From Oscillibacter sp. (GTDB lineage: Bacteria > Bacillota > Clostridia > Oscillospirales > Oscillospiraceae): a stretch of DNA of 64,000 bases. The notes beneath the pieces are model-generated. The model did no database searches. It worked only from the letters and a program-made list of their open reading frames with translations, and was not told where the DNA came from. Position numbers and translations under genes: made by a program. Of this stretch, positions 9,138 to 52,856 are shown in pieces; positions within the stretch are counted from its first letter, which is position 1, and each line of letters opens with the position of its first letter. The stretch covers positions 1 to 64,000 of the forward strand of contig JAAWGR010000007.1 in assembly GCA_022795445.1 (NCBI GenBank), read 5' to 3'.

Positions 9138-9824
9138 TTACCGGACGCCGGCCAGTTCTTTTTTGGCCTCGTTTTGCTTCTCCGCGTAGTCCTCCGCGGA
9201 AACGGAACCGACCCGCAGCAGATAATCTCCCAAATCCTCGGAGGTCGCCATGCCCTCTGTGGACACATCGTCGTGGTGAAGCAGGCAGGCCACCGTCAGA
9301 AACATGATCTTGAGATCTTCCAGGAAGCTGACGCGCTCCAAATATTCCAGGTCATAGCGCAGCCGGTCCTCCCACAGCAGGATGTTCCGCCCGTTTACCT
9401 GGGCCCAGCCGGTCAGACCCGGACGCACCGTATGGCGGCGACGCTGTTCCGGCGTCATAAACACCATGTCCCGCACCAGCTGCGGCCGAGGCCCCACAAT
9501 GGACATATCCCCTTTCAGGATGTTCCACAGCTCCGGCAGCTCGTCCAGGCTGGTGGCCCGGAGCTTCCGGCCGAAGGGCGTCAGCCGTTCCGCGTCGGGG
9601 AGAAGCTCCCCATGCTCGTCCCGTGCATCCGTCATGGAGCGGAACTTGCACATCCGGAAAATCCGCTCGTCTTTCCCGGGGCGGTCCTGATGGAAAATCA
9701 CCGGACTCCCCAGGTTCACCCGCACCAGAATCGCAAGAACCAGCAGCACCGGCGACAGGAGAATCAGCGCACAGAGCGATAAAACAATATCAAAAAAGCG
9801 TTTGAAAAAACGGAGATACAACAT
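9138..9824 (-). CDS. Initiating phosphoglycosyltransferase (PglC/bacterial sugar transferase)
   Basis: A 228-residue monotopic membrane enzyme that transfers a phospho-sugar from UDP-sugar to undecaprenyl phosphate, the first step of lipid-linked glycan assembly. It has an N-terminal re-entrant hydrophobic helix (DIVLSLCALILLSPVLLVLA) and the signature motifs FHQDRPGKDERIFRMCKFRSM, TSLDELPELWNILKGDMSIVGPRP and RPGLTGWAQVNGRN. The short, single-membrane-segment form matches PglC rather than full WbaP. Start after GGAAGACTGTTTC. Beside PglE- and PglD-like genes, so the first sugar may be a bacillosamine-type diacetamido sugar. The C-terminus runs about 30 residues past the usual core. Confidence 0.92.
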   Translation of the reverse strand: MLYLRFFKRFFDIVLSLCALILLSPVLLVLAILVRVNLGSPVIFHQDRPGKDERIFRMCKFRSMTDARDEHGELLPDAERLTPFGRKLRATSLDELPELWNILKGDMSIVGPRPQLVRDMVFMTPEQRRRHTVRPGLTGWAQVNGRNILLWEDRLRYDLEYLERVSFLEDLKIMFLTVACLLHHDDVSTEGMATSEDLGDYLLRVGSVSAEDYAEKQNEAKKELAGVR

Positions 9825-11068: not shown

Positions 11069-11710
11069 TTATGTACTCCTTTCCGCCGCCACGCTGGCGG
11101 CAGCGGCCACAACCTGGCCGCAGTCAATATGCGTTCCATCCGGCAGCACGGCATAGCGGCCGATGGTGGCCCCGCTGGCAATAATACAGCCCCGGCCCAA
11201 CTGCGCGCCCAGCCCAACGGTTGCCCGCGCACAGATAACTGTTCCCGCTCCGATCCCAGCGCTGGAGGAAACCGTTGCGCTGGGATGAATCAAGACCGGC
11301 AGCACAAACCCCGCGACTCCTAAGCTCTCCAGCCAGCGTGTGCGCAACGCGCAGTCGCCCACCGCGGGCACGGCAATCGGGAATGCATCAATATAGTGTT
11401 CCAAATCCCGTATCGGGCCAATAGCCTCCGGCTTTTGATCATCCAAAAACGCAATCTTCCGAAAGACGTTCAAACTCTGGGCCAGCTCCTGAACCTCATG
11501 CCCATGGCTTCCCGCCCCTAAAATCAGCAGGTTCATCTCCCGAATGGACGCGGTTTTCCGAACAGCCTCCTCCCGCTTCCGGACCGCTTCCTCATAGGAC
11601 CGCCCATAGCAGCAGCCATAAATAATCCGTCCCTGTTCATCCCGGCCTTTCGCATATCGGGCCTCATACCGCCCATCTGCCCGCTGCCGGATCGTACCGA
11701 CCCGCCACAT
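11069..11710 (-). CDS. PglD/NeuD-like acetyltransferase with N-terminal integrase arm-type domain
   Basis: A 213-residue protein. From about residue 59 it is a sugar N-acetyltransferase of the PglD/NeuD type: NLLILGAGSHGHEVQELAQ, then hexapeptide repeats HPSATVSSSAGIGAGTVIC and GRGCIIASGATIG. It would acetylate the 4-amino sugar made by the neighbouring PglE-like enzyme. Residues 1-55 (VGTIRQRADGRYEARYAKG, IYGCCYGRSYEEAVRK) instead resemble the arm-type/AP2-like DNA-binding domain at the N-terminus of Tn916-type tyrosine recombinases. The frame is continuous across the join. The ATG at 11710 has a strong GGGAGGAAGG site, whereas the internal ATG before NLLILG has GGGAG directly against it. 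Function of the extra domain is unknown. Confidence 0.82.
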   Translation of the reverse strand: MWRVGTIRQRADGRYEARYAKGRDEQGRIIYGCCYGRSYEEAVRKREEAVRKTASIREMNLLILGAGSHGHEVQELAQSLNVFRKIAFLDDQKPEAIGPIRDLEHYIDAFPIAVPAVGDCALRTRWLESLGVAGFVLPVLIHPSATVSSSAGIGAGTVICARATVGLGAQLGRGCIIASGATIGRYAVLPDGTHIDCGQVVAAAASVAAERST

Positions 11711-11730
11711 GAAACACCTTCCTCCCATTC

Positions 11731-11750
11731 CGTGGTCATTCGTGGTCAAC
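11731..11750 (-). promoter_or_regulatory. Tandem GTGGTCA direct repeats before the PglD-like gene
   Basis: Two copies of CGTGGTCA exactly 10 bp apart (11731 and 11741), just upstream of the ribosome site. The same heptamer forms both arms of the palindrome at 11854-11878. Confidence 0.5.
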
Positions 11751-11779: not shown

Positions 11780-11808
11780 ATTTTACCACGCATCCGAAAA
11801 TTCCGCAA
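11780..11808 (-). promoter_or_regulatory. Predicted sigma-A promoter of the glycan operon
   Basis: On the minus strand: TTGCGG, 17 bp, TAAAAT with an extended TGG before the -10. It lies 70 bp upstream of the PglD-like start. The -35 is weak, so this is a moderate call. Confidence 0.45.
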
Positions 11809-11853: not shown

Positions 11854-11878
11854 CATGACCACAATTACTGTGGTCATG
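11854..11878. promoter_or_regulatory. Perfect 10-bp inverted repeat (operator-like)
   Basis: CATGACCACA, 5-bp spacer, TGTGGTCATG. It contains the GTGGTCA heptamer on both strands and sits upstream of the predicted operon promoter. Confidence 0.55.
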
Positions 11879-11889
11879 TCTGGCAAAAC

Positions 11890-11919
11890 AGGTGCGCTCC
11901 CCTTTCGGAAAGCGCACCT
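11890..11919 (-). terminator. Terminator of the polymerase gene
   Basis: 9-bp perfect stem (AGGTGCGCT / AGCGCACCT) with a 12-base loop. It lies downstream of the stop at 11947 on the minus strand and is followed there by GTTTTG. The U-run is short. Confidence 0.55.
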
Positions 11920-11946: not shown

Positions 11947-14397
11947 TTACGCGTCCGACAGATTTTGGATGGAAATCGCCAGCAGCACCAGGGCGGCCTC
12001 CCCCGTCAAATCCTGTGCGCGAACCTGCTCTGCCCAGAACAAAAACGCCTGGTTTTCTTCGGTCAGCTGAATTTCCTCCACCCGCCCTTCACTGTACGTG
12101 GACAGATAATCCCGCAACGCAAGCGTACCGGTCACAACCGCGTCCACGCCGTCCGCACCCACAGCGGACAGCACGGTAACCCGGTAGAATTCCAATTGCT
12201 GGTTCCATGCGTCGTTCGTAGAGGCCTCCTGCGCAATCGCTTCCCTGGAACACGCAAACAGCTCCTCCAGCTCCCCACGGGGCAGATAGTAATATTCCGC
12301 AAGCCCCGTACAGGCCGTATAAGTGCCGGAAGCTCGCAGATCTTCCGTATACAGCCGCATCTCCCGGTTATACCGGTTATCGTCCAAAATCACCGCATTC
12401 GCAACAAAGTTCAGCTGATACTGCTCCCGGTCCAGCACGTCCATACGGACAAACCGTTTCATGCCGTCCATAAACTCCGCAGGGGTGGAGGGCGAAAAAA
12501 CCTCCGCCTCCCGCCCAACGGCGCGGTGAAGCTCCAACAGGCCGCCGAAAACCTCCAGGAACACCCATAGGACCGCGGCCACCAGGATGCCGCCCCATTT
12601 TACAGCCTTCTGAGACAACGGTTCTCCATATTGCACGATGGTCAGCAACAGCAAAATAAACGCCAGCGCTTGATACGCCCGGATGGAAAAGTTAATTTCC
12701 ATCAAACTGTGAAGGTTCATCATCGCCCAGCAGGACAGCAGGACAGCCGCCAGCGGGTCTGTCTCCTTCCGCAGACGGCGAAGCAGCAGCCAGAGAACAC
12801 CGCCCAAAAAGCCCAGGAAAAACACCAGACCCAACAAGCCACAGTCATCCATAATCTGTAAAACGTGATTATGGACAAAGAGAGATTCATAGAAAAACGG
12901 CTGCACCGACGTCAAAAGACCCTCCGTGCTGCCTAAGCCATAGCCCAGCAGCGGGCTCCCCGTAAACAGCTTCCAGCCGTCCCGGTAATACTGTATTCGA
13001 TAAAGGAAGCTGATCGTGTTCAGCAGGCCGTTTTCCAAACGGTGCGTCACAAAATCCGGCAGAAGCGGACGGCGCAGCACCAGCTCGTTCCCATTGGACA
13101 GGGAGATTTCCCGCAGGCCCGTCCCCGGAGGCCCGGAAAAGCGGAAAGAAACCCGGCCATCCTCCGGCACTGTAAATTCGGCTTTCGAAGCATCCCCATC
13201 GTACAAGAGGGTATACTCTTCTACCAGCACATCCCGCTGGTTTTGATACTGAACAACCGCTCGAAGGCCCGTGTCCCAATCGCCGGAAATGGTATATGTC
13301 CCCTGCTTCATCTCCACGGCCCGGTCAAAATCCCCGCTGGGGCCAATGACCGTCGGCCCGGTAATCGCCATAGCGGCCACCGCATATATCACGACCAGTG
13401 CCGCCAGGGAACCCAGGGTAATGGCCGCCGCTTTCCGACGGCTCTCCAAAAACCGAACCAAACGGAAAGACGCCGCTTCGTACAACCCAAAGATCGGCAC
13501 ACCGCACAGGACCGTCAAAAGATCCGGCAGCGCATTCCCCGCACCAATGCCCCCCACCGCGGGGATAGACAACCCTACTGTTACAGCGGCGGTAAAGAAC
13601 ATCAGGAAAAACAAACGCAGACGGAACGGCTTTCCCACCGCAATCAGATAAACGATCAGCGCCACCGCGAAACATAAAATACCGCCCCGGCTCAAAGCCA
13701 GGAAAAAACCCATCGCATTCATCCCCATCAGGATACTGGCGGCAAGACGGATCCAACGGCGATCTTCCGTAAGGACCAGGTGCAGGCCCGCCAGGGAACC
13801 CAGTGCCAGGATACTGGCGGAAACATTGGCATCGTTGTAGATACCCGCCACCCGGGTACCCCAGACATCCTGCTTCAACCCGGCAAAGGTGCCGCCCATG
13901 GCTTCCACAAATCGGTTAAACCCGTCAAACAGCACCGTATAAGACGCCGCATCCACGCACAGCAGCGAAATTGCCGCGCAGACGGCACACACCATCCACA
14001 GCAGCGCCCGCACGTGTTTCCGGTCAAACCGCGTCAAAACCAGGGACGCCACGGAGAACGACGCCATAAACTTATACAGCTCGCTTACCGCGTAATTCCC
14101 GAACCGTGCATAAATCGCCGAAAGGCCGTAGACCACGGCAAAGAGCACAAATGCAGCCGTCGGGATGCAGAACCGTTCCCGCAAGCGGCGGACTGGGGCC
14201 CGACCAATCGACAGCACCAGTACAAAAAACGACAAAACCACTGCCATTCGGCCCGTCTGCACCGTCATGGCCAAAAACAACAGCAATCCGTAAAGGCTCA
14301 CCCGTACACCGTCCAACAGACCGAATTCCGATGCGGGGGCCGGGACCGGAGCGGCAGGCGGCTCCGCCGGAGCGGGAGCCGGTCTCTTTCTTCTCAC
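11947..14397 (-). CDS. O-antigen ligase / polymerase-like membrane protein
   Basis: An 816-residue polytopic protein. About ten hydrophobic segments fill residues 30-560, and the Wzy_C-type motif FFLALSRGGILCFAVAL appears at about residue 220. A second membrane block (LLGYGLGSTEGLLTSVQPFF, LQIMDDCGLLGLVFFLGFLG) precedes a soluble C-terminal region of about 190 residues. It is likely to polymerise repeat units or transfer glycan to an acceptor on the outer membrane-face side. The GTG at 14397 is chosen because AGGAGGATACATTC precedes it; an ATG at 14475 has no usable spacing. Long C-terminal extensions occur in some glycosylation oligosaccharyltransferase-like ligases, so protein glycosylation is possible. 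Confidence 0.8.
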   Translation of the reverse strand: MRRKRPAPAPAEPPAAPVPAPASEFGLLDGVRVSLYGLLLFLAMTVQTGRMAVVLSFFVLVLSIGRAPVRRLRERFCIPTAAFVLFAVVYGLSAIYARFGNYAVSELYKFMASFSVASLVLTRFDRKHVRALLWMVCAVCAAISLLCVDAASYTVLFDGFNRFVEAMGGTFAGLKQDVWGTRVAGIYNDANVSASILALGSLAGLHLVLTEDRRWIRLAASILMGMNAMGFFLALSRGGILCFAVALIVYLIAVGKPFRLRLFFLMFFTAAVTVGLSIPAVGGIGAGNALPDLLTVLCGVPIFGLYEAASFRLVRFLESRRKAAAITLGSLAALVVIYAVAAMAITGPTVIGPSGDFDRAVEMKQGTYTISGDWDTGLRAVVQYQNQRDVLVEEYTLLYDGDASKAEFTVPEDGRVSFRFSGPPGTGLREISLSNGNELVLRRPLLPDFVTHRLENGLLNTISFLYRIQYYRDGWKLFTGSPLLGYGLGSTEGLLTSVQPFFYESLFVHNHVLQIMDDCGLLGLVFFLGFLGGVLWLLLRRLRKETDPLAAVLLSCWAMMNLHSLMEINFSIRAYQALAFILLLLTIVQYGEPLSQKAVKWGGILVAAVLWVFLEVFGGLLELHRAVGREAEVFSPSTPAEFMDGMKRFVRMDVLDREQYQLNFVANAVILDDNRYNREMRLYTEDLRASGTYTACTGLAEYYYLPRGELEELFACSREAIAQEASTNDAWNQQLEFYRVTVLSAVGADGVDAVVTGTLALRDYLSTYSEGRVEEIQLTEENQAFLFWAEQVRAQDLTGEAALVLLAISIQNLSDA

Positions 14398-14523
14398 GAA
14401 TGTATCCTCCTGTAATGCGGGCCCAGGAAGCGGGCCGGAATTTTTCGCATACCGCGATAGGTTATTATATCCCATTCCTTTCCGTATGGCAAGGCAAAAT
14501 TTGTGAAATTCCGAACCAAAAGC

Positions 14524-18969: not shown

Positions 18970-20826
18970 CTACGCCTCTTCAAAACAGGAAAACGCCGGG
19001 TAATACCGGAACGGAACCGGCTTTCCCAGCCCCGCCGTCCGGTTCTTGAGGATTTTCAGTTCCAGCTCCCTGGGGTCCTTCCGCTTCTCCGCGTCGATAT
19101 TGAAGTTCTTCCCCCCCGCTCCCTGGGCCTGAAGGCCCAGTAAAACGTCCGCGCTGTAATCGATACCGCCGGATTCCTTGAACGCCGCCATGGAGGCCTC
19201 TGCGTTGTAATTCTCCCGGTTGAACGAGGAGATGGCTAGAACCGTCAGCTCGTACTTCCGGGAGAGCTTTTTCAGGCTGCATACGTTCCGGTCCAGATTC
19301 TGCTTGTCCGTAAAATGCACGTCGGCCGGGGCGATAATCTGCAGGTAGTCTACGATTACTACCGGCTTCGCGCCGGTTTCCTCTATGTGCCGCCGGACTT
19401 CTCGTTCCATCGTCTCCACGCCGGTCTCATGGTCTCCTTCCCGGAACCATAGATGCCCGCCGTAGGCGGCGTAGCGGTCCGTGGCCGCCTGAAGGTGTGC
19501 GTGCTCCGCCAGACTGTATTGGAAGTATCGTTTCCCGTCAAGCACGCCCCGGACCGTCTTTGCCAGCTTCCGGCCCTTCGACTGGTCCGAGAGGAACGTC
19601 TCCCGAGAGATGGACCGGGCCATCAGTTCATATTCCGACATCTCCAGGGAGAAAATAAGCACGTCCTGTCCCCGCTGCGCTAGCTGGTCGGCAATCTGCA
19701 TACAGAAGGCGGTTTTCCCGAGGGAGCTGATCGCGCCCAATACATATAACCCGTCATACAGTCCCCCGTCCAGAGCCGCGTCCAGCTTGGGGAACCCGGT
19801 TTTCAGCCTCGGGCGGGTGGCTTGCGCCGTAATGTACTGCGCCAGGGCCCCGAGGCGGCCGGCCGCGGACTGCGCCCCGTAGGGCGGCGGCGCTTGCTGT
19901 TTCCATTCCGCCAGGCAGCCCGCCAGATACTGCGCCGTCCCGGCCCGGTCCGCCGTGAGGGATTCGTTCAGGTCCTTGCCGGACGGAACCGGCGGGCACC
20001 GGTACAGCCAGGGGAATTCCTGTTTGAGCGCGGCGGCCCATGCCTCCCCGGCAGGGTCGTTGTCCGGAACCAACAGCACCGGTCCAGGTTTTGCCCGCTT
20101 CCGTAGGATGGCGGAGGCTTTCTCCCGGTTTCCGGACCCGTTCAGCGCGGCGGCCCGGAAGCCCAGTTCTTCCGCGCTGAGGGCGTCGAAGGCTCCTTCC
20201 GTCAGGAACACCGGTTCGTCCTGCTCCAGTAGCTCCGGCTGGAACAGCGGCGACGGCGCGCCCTTTTCGTTTAGGTATTTCTTCCCGCTGGTAGAACGCA
20301 GGATGAACCGTCCCTGTTCGCAGGGCAGCACGACGCATTCCTTCTGGGGGTCGTAGCCCAGGCCGAACCTTTCCGCCGTCTCTGGGGAGAGGCCCCTGTC
20401 TGCAAAGTAGCGGGTTTTTTCCCGCTGGGCGTGACAGGCGGAAAGGTAATCCTTGGGCGTGCTTTCCAAAACCGGCAAACGGGCGGCTTCGCCGCCTCCC
20501 CCCGTTTCCCCTTCGAGGGCTCTGGAAGGACCGGAGGTCCTTTGGGGCGTTTGCCCAATGTTGTCGTGGCCATATAGGCGGGAGGCTTCTCGGAGCGCTT
20601 CCTTCGCGGTGGGGAGGTTTTGGTCGATCATTAGCAGGTCGAATAAGTCGTAGTCCGCGCCGCAGGCGAAGCAGTGCACTTTTTTGCGTTTCGCGTCGAA
20701 GCCCATGGAGGGGTTCCGGTCGAGGTGGTTGGGGTTTAGGCAGCGGAAGCGCTTAGCGGGATTGATTCCCTTCATATGGAGATAGTCCCGGAGGTAGGGC
20801 CGGAGGCTGTCGAAGGTGTCGAGCAT
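18970..20826 (-). CDS. Primase-helicase (CHC2 zinc finger, Toprim, DnaB-like)
   Basis: A 618-residue fusion resembling T7 gp4 in plan. Residues about 20-60 hold a CHC2-type zinc finger (CLNPNHLDRNPSMGF, VHCFACGADYDLFDL). About 190-300 is a Toprim region (VFLTEGAFDALSAEELGF, LLVPDNDPAGEAW). About 350-610 is a RecA-fold helicase with Walker A AISSLGKTAFCMQIA, LIFSLEMSEYELMARSISRE and VVIVDYLQIIAP. It would prime and unwind DNA for replication of a mobile element. The ATG at 20826 has GAAAGGAAACGCACC in front; an upstream in-frame extension to 21180 is low-complexity and rejected. It lies just downstream of the initiator-like gene, as in plasmid or ICE replication modules. Confidence 0.85.
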   Translation of the reverse strand: MLDTFDSLRPYLRDYLHMKGINPAKRFRCLNPNHLDRNPSMGFDAKRKKVHCFACGADYDLFDLLMIDQNLPTAKEALREASRLYGHDNIGQTPQRTSGPSRALEGETGGGGEAARLPVLESTPKDYLSACHAQREKTRYFADRGLSPETAERFGLGYDPQKECVVLPCEQGRFILRSTSGKKYLNEKGAPSPLFQPELLEQDEPVFLTEGAFDALSAEELGFRAAALNGSGNREKASAILRKRAKPGPVLLVPDNDPAGEAWAAALKQEFPWLYRCPPVPSGKDLNESLTADRAGTAQYLAGCLAEWKQQAPPPYGAQSAAGRLGALAQYITAQATRPRLKTGFPKLDAALDGGLYDGLYVLGAISSLGKTAFCMQIADQLAQRGQDVLIFSLEMSEYELMARSISRETFLSDQSKGRKLAKTVRGVLDGKRYFQYSLAEHAHLQAATDRYAAYGGHLWFREGDHETGVETMEREVRRHIEETGAKPVVIVDYLQIIAPADVHFTDKQNLDRNVCSLKKLSRKYELTVLAISSFNRENYNAEASMAAFKESGGIDYSADVLLGLQAQGAGGKNFNIDAEKRKDPRELELKILKNRTAGLGKPVPFRYYPAFSCFEEA

Positions 20827-21250
20827 GGTGCGTTTCCTTTCTGGAGGGTTTTTATAGGAAAGGCCGCGGTGCGGAGCCCGGCCTTTCTTAGGATATCTTA
20901 AGATATCTATAAGGGGTGTTTCCGGAGGTTGGAGTGTTTGGGGGGAATGGAAGCGTTTTTGGCGGTTTTCGGCATTATTCCCTTTTTTTTGGGGGGTTGG
21001 GTTTGGGATTTCGTTTTTTTGTCGTGGACGGCGGGGCTTCTTCTGCACGGGTTGGAGTCGGCGTTGCACGGTTGTGGGTCGGCCCGGCACGGGTTGAAGT
21101 CGGACGCGGGAGTCGGTTTGGGCGGGTTTTTCTGCGGTTTGGGGGAGGGTTTTCCCCTTCTGTCCGGTTTTCCGGTGCAAAAACGGGGTTTTTGCACCGT
21201 TTTGGTGGCGGTTCGGGGAAACAGGCCCGGATGGTTTCCCCGGAGGGCTC
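20827..21250. other. Low-complexity, G-rich spacer between replication genes
   Basis: 420 bp with no convincing gene. 21040-21120 holds short repeats of the type GTTGNNGTCGG...GCACGG. Any frames here read as repetitive R/P/Q or G/V runs. A possible leader for the primase-helicase gene, but I see no clear promoter. Confidence 0.4.
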
Positions 21251-22618
21251 TTATTCCGACGTGGTTTCGTGCGGTTTTTTCGGAAATTCCGATGTGCTTT
21301 CGTGCGGGGCGGCGGCGGGTTCCGACGTGGTTTCGTGCGGCGCTTCCCCGGCTTCCGGCGGTTCTCCCTTCGTCTTGGCGACTGCTTTGGGCTTGCGGGT
21401 ACGCTTTTTTCCTTCGAGCTGTTTCGCGCTTTTGGTTTTTTCCAGCTTCTTTCGGTATTCCTGCATGGCGTCGTCGATGCGGATGGTGATTTGACCGGCC
21501 AGGAAGGTGTTGATGTTGTTGTAGTCCAGTTCGATGTCCAGGGAGCCGCCGGAGATGCGCCGGATTTCCTCGGCGGCTTTCTTGAAGGGGCGGAGGATGG
21601 CCTCGTCGTAGTTGCGGTTTTTGACCTCCTCTTTCGTGGGGAGGCCGATGTACTGGATGACGTCCTCCACCCGGACGCGGAAGGTCCCGGCCTCGTCTAC
21701 CGGCGCTTTGCGGGCGCGGTAGTACAGGTAGAAGGCCATGCGGTAGGCGTTTTCCGTAAGCTGGCCCATCCAGTCGGGGATGAGCTGGTAGTATTGCGTT
21801 AGGAAATGGCGGACGTTTTCGGTGAAGGTGATGCGGATTTCGCCGGTGTATTTTTTGATGGAGGCCTCGGTGGCCAGGTGGGTGGTATAGAAGGATTCAA
21901 AGTATTTTTTGAAGGATTCAGCGGTGAGCTTCACGCCGGTGATGGACTGCACGTCCTTTTTCAGCTGCCGGTACGCGGCGTCCCGGGAGTTGAGTCCCGC
22001 CCACTCCATGTATTCGGTGATGTTGAACACCGCGGCGTTGTTCCGCCAGTTCTGGGTGTTGCCCCGCATGAGGGTGTAGATCAGGAGCCGGTGGGCCGTC
22101 CAGGAGAGGTTTTTCGTGTATTCCTGCACCGCCTCGAAGATGAGGGTCATCTGGTAGTCCTTGTTGCGGTAGCGGATGTTTTGGTTGCCGTAGGCGTCGG
22201 GCTCGGAGTAGGTGACGGTGATGCCGTTGGAGGCGGGGTGGAATTCCCGGCCCCGCTTCATGTTGGCCCAGACGCCGCAGATGAAGTAGGTGGCAGGGCT
22301 GTTGCCCAGGATGTCGTATTGGGTGGTGAGGGCGGCGGCCCGCTCCTCGAAGGTCTGGGCCAGGGCGGCGGCGAAGGCGGCGGTCTCCGGGTCGTCCGGG
22401 ATGCCGTTTTCCAGGTTGTGGGTCTTGAAGTATTCGGCCATCAGGGGATAGATGTTCTGGAAGTCGTATTGCACCAGCTGGCGCTTGAACGCGGCTGGTT
22501 TTTTTCCGTCCAGGGGCTGGAGCCGGCGGTAGGTTTGCAGCATTTCCCGGAACTGGTCGCTCTCCAGGAAGCGGAGGGGGTTTTCCTTCAATTCTTCAAG
22601 TGGTTCCAGGGCGGGCAT
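21251..22618 (-). CDS. Replication-initiator-like protein
   Basis: A 455-residue protein, ATG at 22618 behind AAAGGAGGCTTTTT. The body (TGVKLTAESFKKYFESFYTT, ITEYMEWAGLNSRDAAYRQL, LIPDWMGQLTENAYRMAFYL) has the alternating helical pattern and winged-helix-like segments of plasmid and ICE initiators; no exact family is certain. Residues 400-425 are strongly basic (KKRTRKPKAVAKTK). The last 33 residues are three HETTSE/HESTSE units separated by P- and A-rich linkers, also found in the phage gene near 33 kb. Together with the primase-helicase downstream it forms a replication module, which suggests an integrated plasmid-like element. Function is inferred from context and size. Confidence 0.6.
   Translation of the reverse strand: MPALEPLEELKENPLRFLESDQFREMLQTYRRLQPLDGKKPAAFKRQLVQYDFQNIYPLMAEYFKTHNLENGIPDDPETAAFAAALAQTFEERAAALTTQYDILGNSPATYFICGVWANMKRGREFHPASNGITVTYSEPDAYGNQNIRYRNKDYQMTLIFEAVQEYTKNLSWTAHRLLIYTLMRGNTQNWRNNAAVFNITEYMEWAGLNSRDAAYRQLKKDVQSITGVKLTAESFKKYFESFYTTHLATEASIKKYTGEIRITFTENVRHFLTQYYQLIPDWMGQLTENAYRMAFYLYYRARKAPVDEAGTFRVRVEDVIQYIGLPTKEEVKNRNYDEAILRPFKKAAEEIRRISGGSLDIELDYNNINTFLAGQITIRIDDAMQEYRKKLEKTKSAKQLEGKKRTRKPKAVAKTKGEPPEAGEAPHETTSEPAAAPHESTSEFPKKPHETTSE
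21255..21345. repeat. HETxSE-coding repeat, initiator copy
   Basis: Three units of TCCGACGTGGTTTCGTGCGG type on the plus strand (CACGAAA...GTCGGAA on the coding strand). The same unit is amplified at 32805-33230. Confidence 0.7.
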
Positions 22619-32804: not shown

Positions 32805-33230
32805 CTGCACGAAACGGAGTCGGGATTTCCGGATAGGGACTGCCGGAGCTGCACGAAGGCAAGTCGGAACCGCCGGAGGTGCTGCACGAAACGGAGTCGG
32901 AATTTCCGGATAGGGCGCTGCCGGAGACGCACGAAAGCAAGTCGGAACCGCTGGAGGCGCTGCACGAAACGGAGTCGGAATTTCCGGATAGGGCGCCGCT
33001 GGAAACGCACGAAAGCAAGTCGGAACCGCCGGAGGTGCTGCACGAAATAGAGTCGGGATTTCCGGATAGGGACTGCCGGAGCTGCACGAAGGCAAGTCGG
33101 AACCGCCGGAAGCGCTGCACGAAAGGAAGTCGGAAGTATCGGAGGGCCTGCACGAAATCGAGTCGGACTTCCCGGAAACGGCGCTGCCGGAGATACACGA
33201 AACGGAGTCGGATTATGTCGAACTGCCGCG
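32805..33230 (+). repeat. Tandem 78-bp repeat coding HETxSE/HESxSE units
   Basis: About five imperfect copies of a 78-bp unit built from two related halves (CTGCACGAAACGGAGTCGGA and ACGCACGAAAGCAAGTCGGA). Neighbouring copies differ by few bases. A single inverted half-unit lies at about 32445-32475. Confidence 0.8.
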
Positions 33231-52490: not shown

Positions 52491-52856
52491 ATTATACCAC
52501 AACAAGAGACTTCAGGGAACTACAACAAAAAGTTATCGCTTTGGCAGCGTGTTACCATTATACCACAACAAGAGACTTCAGGGAACTACAACACCTTTTC
52601 TCTTTCTTTGTTCTTTTATTTGATTATACCACAACAAGAGACTTCAGGGAACTACAACTTATTCTGTGCGGGGACGCGCTGGAAGTGCATTATACCACAA
52701 CAAGAGACTTCAGGGAACTACAACTAATAATCATTGTAGCATTTAATTGTATACATTATACCACAACAAGAGACTTCAGGGAACTACAGCAGCCGGAATT
52801 TATAGGCTTTTCCATGGAGAATTATACCACAACAATAGACTTCAGCGAATTACAAT
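52491..52856 (-). CRISPR. CRISPR array, 6 repeats of 36 bp, 5 spacers of 30 bp
   Basis: Repeats start at 52491, 52557, 52623, 52689, 52755 and 52821, giving an exact 66-bp period. Copies 1-4 are identical, copy 5 has one change near its right end, and copy 6 has four (degenerate terminal copy). In crRNA orientation (minus strand) the repeat begins GTTGTAGTTCCCTG and ends TGTTGTGGTATAAT. The end TGGTATAAT is a perfect extended -10, so each spacer may be transcribed from its own repeat, as in Neisseria II-C arrays. The conserved end next to cas2 is the likely acquisition end. The spacers show no match elsewhere in this window that I could see. Confidence 0.96.

Follow-up and report, generated by a model that had tools for sequence, protein, structure and literature searches.

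An integrase arm domain fused to a degenerate PglD-like module as a predicted operon autoregulator in Bacillota

The window analyzed here, a 64,000-nucleotide stretch of an Oscillibacter sp. genome, contains a gene in which the N-terminal DNA-binding domain of an integrase runs in one frame into a truncated PglD/NeuD-like sugar acetyltransferase. We give roughly two chances in three to the account that the encoded protein is an operon autoregulator, in which the integrase arm domain would contact DNA and a dead sugar enzyme would serve as the sensor.

The fused gene and its two parts

11069..11710, minus strand: fused gene, integrase-type arm domain plus PglD/NeuD-like module, 213 amino acids
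11555..11710, minus strand: residues 1-52, integrase-type N-terminal (arm / AP2-like) DNA-binding domain, assigned by homology
11072..11536, minus strand: residues 59-213, truncated PglD/NeuD-like module with Asp90-Asp91 kept, from family matches and alignment
11156..11158, minus strand: codon of Arg185, which lines up with the catalytic His125 of PglD in an alignment with solved PglB/PglD sequences
11721..11726, minus strand: ribosome-binding site of the fused form, GGGAGG, ending 10 nucleotides before the ATG

The fused frame opens with an ATG at 11710 on the minus strand, and the ribosome-binding site before it has a single mismatch to AGGAGG, compared with four mismatches before an internal ATG at 11536-11534 (Met59). 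Among the fused homologs, a match to AGGAGG with no more than two mismatches lies ahead of the fused ATG in 20 of 21 cases and ahead of the internal position in 2 of 21; the internal codon is itself ATG in only 5 of the 21, TTG in 2 and some other codon in 14. On these counts we rejected an enzyme-only start at the internal ATG, and the fused form is most likely the protein that is actually translated. Neither chance nor an assembly error produced the fusion, because it recurs in genomes of the genus and at 22 full-length loci in the species collection.

By homology, residues 1-52 are an N-terminal integrase-type DNA-binding domain, of the arm or AP2-like type, whose usual fold is a three-stranded sheet plus a helix. 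Their closest match (63% identity over 51 amino acids, blastp 5e-16) is to a 397-residue protein in L082 that carries PF00589 and SAM_3, an intact tyrosine integrase, and hhalign matched 15 fused N-termini to 10 integrase N-termini at 99.9% (E 4e-33). Within genomes of the genus, residues 5-56 align with the N-terminal ends of numerous open frames, typically about 350-480 amino acids long and in some cases shorter; most of the 20 such places that we fetched look by eye like integrases, and all three integrases scanned for families carry PF00589 and SAM_3. The species collection holds 34 loci that match the N-domain only: 25 have a recombinase motif (by regular expression), four are frames of 437-440 amino acids without that motif, and five are short or broken. 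Residues 1-58 alone match no Pfam or NCBIfam family. When the fused N-termini were compared with Pfam PF02920 and AP2 PF00847, the window gave no match, and among 15 members there were two with a best E of 0.016 and one at 0.0083; a search of PDB sequences with the N-domain returned no integrase match. Because Pfam hardly recognizes the domain, we assign it from integrase homology instead of a curated arm-domain model. The catalytic domain of a tyrosine recombinase is absent: the fused protein has only the N-terminal 52 or so residues and no match to PF00589.

The second part is recognizably related to PglD. Residues 60-213 match PF17836 PglD_N (3.9e-11) and Hexapep (1.7e-6), and they match TIGR03570 NeuD at 8.1e-27 with 94 bits, under the cut-off of 160.8, over profile positions 1-157 of 202. 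We aligned 21 fused proteins (the window and 20 of the 22 species-collection loci, with L076 and L081 left out) with 14 full-length NeuDs. The D90-D91 pair, equivalent to Asp35-Asp36 of PglD, is present in all 21 fused proteins, and the position of PglD His15 is kept in 19. The catalytic His, retained in 14 of 14 full-length NeuDs, is found in no fused protein; its position holds arginine in 14, lysine in one, and serine, glutamate or threonine in six. Past alignment column 192 the fused set has 5-41 residues (21 in the window) versus 63-73 in the full-length NeuDs, and about 50 C-terminal residues together with the last hexapeptide coils are missing. PMC8040287 describes Asp35-Asp36 as contacting the UDP-sugar. 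In PMC2943079, His125 of PglD is called the general base, and mutation of the matching His in QdtC merely lowered activity, so that loss of the His is by itself no proof of inactivity. Shortness or fusion need not mean inactivity either, because the stand-alone short modules L120, L121 and L142 and the recombinase-fused L119 all keep the catalytic His; the three stand-alone modules lie among sugar-nucleotide and polysaccharide genes, their neighbors having been read by eye. We infer that the enzyme half of the fused protein is catalytically inactive.

Among 86 genomes of the genus, the window's own included, the fusion is intact in four (that of the window, G071, G079 and G053) and frameshifted in G008. 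One scan of the species collection returned 56 relatives, of which 22 are full-length loci (L060-L081); three of these were already counted in the genus set (L060 = G071, L061 = G079, L064 = G053), and L076 repeats L075. The copy in Longibaculum muris DSM 29487 (L081) is disrupted, and it is the sole full-length locus outside metagenome-assembled genomes. The carriers are labelled Oscillibacter, Oscillospiraceae, Lachnospiraceae, Hungatella, Eubacterium, Ruminococcus, Erysipelotrichia, Neobacillus, and unplaced Clostridia or Bacillota. The protein is rare, since in a phylum sample of 398 genomes, 10 of which had a match, the N-domain was covered only in the window's own genome. A family sample of 400 added two further kinds: G288 has a divergent fusion, and G092 and G234 have recombinase-PglD proteins. 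We rejected the idea that the fusion is phage cargo, as one scan of viral contigs found no full-length fusion and only a domain-sized match (residues 6-53, L151).

For both halves, every dN/dS value that could be calculated is far under 1: 0.008-0.15 for the N-part (5 of 10 pairs, the other 5 being saturated) and 0.02-0.22 for the PglD part (9 of 10 pairs, 1 saturated). Non-synonymous difference is lower in the N-part than in the PglD part in 9 of the 10 pairs. In a tree of the modules, all fused copies fall in one short-module clade (support 99/98), apart from the 14 full-length NeuDs. This clade also takes in L117, L118, L119 and the stand-alone L120, L121 and L142, and within it the fused proteins do not come together as a single group, so the tree leaves a single origin of the fusion unsettled.

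An earlier note on this DNA, made from the sequence alone, had likened the first residues to the arm-type/AP2-like domain of integrases and had placed the strong ribosome site before the fused form and not before an enzyme-only start; the integrase matches and the position of GGGAGG agree with both claims. It described the domain as running in frame into a NeuD/PglD acetyltransferase, and here the fusion stands, with the amendment that the enzyme part is truncated and lacks its catalytic His. The note also proposed looking for other proteins with the same domain pair, which the 22 full-length loci supply. Its suggestion of a scar of element insertion is not supported, given the recurrence of the fusion across Bacillota and the low dN/dS of both halves.

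Leader DNA and operon context

11732..11748, minus strand: putative downstream operator, direct repeat TGACCAC-N3-TGACCAC with a 10-bp period
11780..11808, minus strand: candidate promoter TTGCGG-17-TAAAAT, 8 of 12 consensus matches, missing from a stricter promoter scan
11856..11876, no strand assigned: putative upstream operator, inverted pair TGACCAC-N7-GTGGTCA, with similar pairs in other leaders
11885..11918, minus strand: terminator-like hairpin (GGTGCGCT...AGCGCACC TGTTTT) 3' of the upstream gene, not listed by a stricter scan
11947..14475, minus strand: upstream gene outside the fused gene's unit, an 842-residue membrane protein, presumably O-antigen-ligase/Wzy-like, with homologs preceding the fused gene in L060 and L061
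9871..11067, minus strand: DegT-type sugar aminotransferase, the next gene, starting 1 nucleotide after the stop codon of the fused gene
9138..9824, minus strand: sugar-phosphate transferase in the same run of genes, which we take to be PglC/WcaJ-like; relatives scanned were Bac_transf in L081 and an EPS sugar transferase in L072

Reading in the direction of transcription, the leader in the window comprises the terminator-like hairpin of the upstream gene, the inverted pair, the promoter, the direct repeat, the ribosome site and the ATG. The hexamer TGACCA is abundant in comparable leaders: 49 copies occur in the 300 bp before 16 fused genes, against 1.9 +- 1.4 in 200 dinucleotide shuffles (maximum 7), for a set of leaders (the window, L060-L073 and L081) that are related to each other and were grouped after the motif had been noticed by eye. 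TGACCA/TGGTCA is the commonest of all 6-mers upstream, being present in 15 of 16 leaders versus 2.6 expected; the remaining leader, L073, has no exact TGACCA. With the best-scoring consensus-match promoter taken in each case, TGACCA lies both upstream of the -35 and downstream of the -10 in 11 of the 16. We treated six rumen leaders (L074, L075, L077-L080) separately because they look different; they contain 2 copies in total. The fusion in L118 likewise has no copy in the 450 bp upstream. Conserved operator-like sites at the gene's own promoter are a feature of the group of 16 and are absent from the six rumen leaders.

Most spacings between adjacent GACCA cores fit helical phasing (neighbors within 40 bp; raw spacings without a shuffle control). 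Inward-facing cores are 13-14 bp (7 loci) or 23-25 bp (5 loci) apart, values that differ by about one turn, and direct cores are 10 or 11 bp apart in 7 loci and 20 and 32 bp apart in L062. The outward-facing spacings of 7, 17, 18, 18 and 29 bp in L063, L065 and L066, and those of L062, do not all fit helical phasing. The inverted pair also folds as an RNA hairpin.

The exact direct repeat, TGACCAYNNNTGACCAY, occurs once in the 3.24-Mb genome of the window, before the fused gene. In ten other genomes of the genus it likewise has one copy, at the fused gene of G079; a reversed control pattern also gave one match in these ten genomes. G071 and G053 carry the fused gene without the exact repeat, which among five leaders compared is exact in the window and G079 only. 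Across 7 more distant carrier genomes a looser form of the repeat had 9 matches, against 1 for the control; two of the 9 are the fused-gene leaders of L067 and L068. Of the other seven, which include L187, L188 and L190, we inspected four that lie outside those three and judged them to be coding (open frames of 340, 893 and 267 codons, and the fourth from its opposite-strand sequence, by eye). A second match to the inverted pair in the window's own genome (C90) is inside a reading frame, presumably ribF-like. Before the 34 N-domain-only loci TGACCA is sparse, with 12 copies in 34 leaders of 320 bp and 9 leaders having any, and we discarded the idea that the closest integrases share these sites.

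The genes that follow are of different kinds. In the window, the DegT and PglC-like genes are succeeded by two hexapeptide proteins and a second DegT-like gene, and we take those further downstream to be UDP-sugar enzymes and a glycosyltransferase. Polysaccharide-type genes come next in 8 of the 16 site-bearing loci (the window, L060, L061, L064, L069, L072, L073 and L081). The other 8 lead into an importer. This is BCCT in L067, L070 and L071, SNF in L068 and, in L063, an ABC system of the Liv type; SBP_bac_5 is found in L062 and, behind a complete NeuD, in L065, and L066 is assigned to the pattern of L065 by gene order only. The TGACCA sites and the fused gene persist while the downstream genes change. 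A complete NeuD with its His kept lies directly after the fused gene in two of these loci (L065:5766-6410 and L066:7010-7654) and three genes past it in another (L069:10494-11126). An origin of the fusion beside an EPS operon was considered and set aside, as 12 loci with similar integrases had no match to the polysaccharide genes of the window at 1e-5.

Several features of the surroundings deserve mention in their own right. The interval 18970-22618 of the window, which presumably encodes primase/helicase-like and replication-initiator-like genes, is near the EPS operon, and the fused gene has a helicase homolog immediately upstream of it in L064 (G053) and about 6 kb upstream in L061 (G079). 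Given these replication-type genes and helicase homologs nearby, the EPS locus may be carried by an integrated element or lie next to one. Arrays of CACGAAAnCAnnTCGGAA units, which look like iterons or a mobile-element signature, are present at 21253-21357, at the 3' end of a frame that we assume to be replication-initiator-like, and 11 kb away at 32805-33135. Another tandem array, with a 66-bp period (ATTATACCACAACAAGAGACTTCAGGGAACTACAAC...), spans 52491-52855 in the lowest-GC kilobase of the window. In the rumen Lachnospiraceae sister group (L074-L080), the neighbors of the fused gene include an ABC-2 membrane protein, DUF3737, an EAL-GGDEF protein and several that were not recognized.

Predicted mechanism and rival explanations

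In the mechanism that we propose, the arm domain of about 52 residues would read TGACCA(C/T) half-sites, and the PglD/NeuD-type remainder of about 155 residues would perform no catalysis, its nucleotide-binding fold being kept for oligomerization and ligand sensing. A multimer would occupy the inverted pair upstream of the -35 and the direct repeat between the -10 and the start codon; once bound it would most likely repress, possibly by looping, and a nucleotide-sugar, or some other small molecule in importer operons, would alter DNA binding. PglD-type enzymes are trimers according to PMC8040287, which would bring several DNA-binding domains together and suit paired, phased sites flanking a promoter. 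The kept residues that the same paper links to nucleotide binding suggest a ligand response, and the importer operons hint that different branches may have different ligands. We infer the binding of the predicted sites, the direction of control and the ligand from sequence. That the fused protein is a DNA-binding autoregulator seems to us quite probable; that it represses its own operon we hold to be a little better than an even bet; and a nucleotide-sugar as its ligand is a tentative choice that falls somewhat short of one.

Integrase ancestry could also point to an accessory role in recombination, in which the protein would occupy arm-type sites and thereby assist or hinder an integrase, for instance at an invertible switch or during element excision, rather than act on transcription as such. 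Direct repeats also precede integrase genes by eye, and in G092 a degenerate recombinase-PglD fusion heads an EPS-type run with a split integrase beside it. We nonetheless consider this role unlikely, given the sparseness of TGACCA before the 34 N-domain-only loci (12 copies, 9 leaders) and the uniqueness of the exact direct repeat in its own genome. It is distinctly unlikely that the TGACCA sites serve another, unlinked regulator, or act as RNA hairpins, with the fused protein having an unrelated role. The hairpin-forming ability of the inverted pair and the rumen fusions that lack sites would fit such a scheme, as would the fact that the link between protein and sites is a prediction from sequence. 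However, most spacings (10-11, 13-14 and 23-25 bp) match helical DNA phasing, direct repeats form no hairpin, and the sites travel with the fused gene across families and operon types.

The earlier suggestion of a metabolic enzyme that moonlights as an operon regulator has to be divided. An active sugar acetyltransferase with a captured integrase domain would explain the recognizable PglD_N and hexapeptide domains, the retention of the catalytic His by some short relatives, and the order of DegT aminotransferase and PglC-like transferase downstream, the usual partners of PglD. Such activity is quite improbable in view of the replaced His and missing final coils (about 50 C-terminal residues) in 21 of 21 aligned fused proteins, the complete NeuD in the same gene run at three loci, and the two other hexapeptide proteins downstream in the window; the regulatory part of the suggestion is now the best reading, and the metabolic part is not supported. 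Least probable of all, and very much so, is a neutral insertion relic or a start-choice artefact in which translation truly begins at the internal ATG. That codon does exist in the window, and disrupted copies are known from G008 and Longibaculum muris, but conservation of the N-part equals or exceeds that of the rest in 9 of 10 pairs, and the internal position has ATG in 5 of 21 homologs and a ribosome site in 2 of 21, versus 20 of 21 for the fused ATG.

Relation to known systems

As an autoregulator, the fused protein would stand between several known systems. It shares residues 1-52, by homology, with the N-terminal domain of tyrosine integrases, among which the Tn916 type with its arm / AP2-like domain is the nearest counterpart; short direct repeats are the usual kind of arm site for these enzymes. 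Their core-binding and catalytic domains are absent from the fused protein, which has the PglD-like module instead. With the PglD, NeuD and VioB UDP-amino-sugar N-acetyltransferases (TIGR03570; PDB 4m98, 2vhe and 3bss) it shares the PglD_N half, the start of the hexapeptide helix and the Asp pair, and it differs from them in the lost catalytic His, the missing last coils and its separate clade. Like bacterial one-component regulators it would combine DNA-binding and small-molecule domains in an operon-specific manner, with putative sites at its own promoter; to our knowledge, neither its DNA-binding domain nor its sensor domain belongs to the usual families of such regulators. We rate it as a variant of the one-component regulator and not as a separate category.

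The closest architectural parallels are the degenerate recombinase-PglD fusion of G092 (L152:6014-7132) and the remnant in G234 (L153:3706-4431), in both of which an integrase-derived part precedes a short PglD-like module of similar kind. In G092 the integrase catalytic domain (PF00589, 2.5e-6) takes the place of the arm domain, the gene is the first of an EPS-type run, and no TGACCA is found in the 450 bp upstream; the G234 remnant keeps the catalytic His, unlike the fused proteins. These cases suggest that the arm-domain and degenerate-integrase architectures may both descend from an integrase-PglD fusion. The split integrase in G092 adjoins the recombinase-PglD gene divergently. A separate observation concerns the 437-440-residue proteins with an arm-type N-domain (L100:7998-9308, L111:7998-9308 and L115:4245-5564, and L108 by size only), which come from Butyrivibrio, Oribacterium and Lachnospiraceae. 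Three of the four have a SAM domain, a weak PF00589 match below cut-off and a C-terminal helix-turn-helix, and they are perhaps another integrase turned regulator.

PMC3537659 derives eukaryotic AP2 transcription factors from prokaryotes or mobile elements and records the AP2 domain in lambda integrase as well, so the principle of turning an integrase domain into a regulator is already known. The fused protein resembles these factors in the re-use of an integrase-type DNA-binding domain for gene control, but it is bacterial and coupled to a metabolic-enzyme module, and it presumably arose in an independent event. Our search of the open-licence literature found no description of an integrase-arm plus PglD fusion, in agreement with the earlier note, which knew of no example, and a bacterial case that pairs an enzyme-derived sensor with an operator of its own seems to be new. 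By a slight preference, we favor the broader view that an AP2-like integrase arm domain was domesticated into a bacterial transcription factor family, a counterpart of the plant and apicomplexan AP2 factors, which would use a dead nucleotide-sugar acetyltransferase to sense a ligand and to scaffold a trimer, and would have a TGACCA operator code of its own before polysaccharide and importer operons across Bacillota. If this is true, a DNA-binding fold and a sensor module would join the repertoire of bacterial regulators, and the step from integrase to transcription factor proposed for eukaryotic AP2 factors would be shown in bacteria. The predicted operator would be directly testable, and it would give a starting point for studying the way uncultured gut Clostridia switch their surface-polysaccharide and uptake operons.
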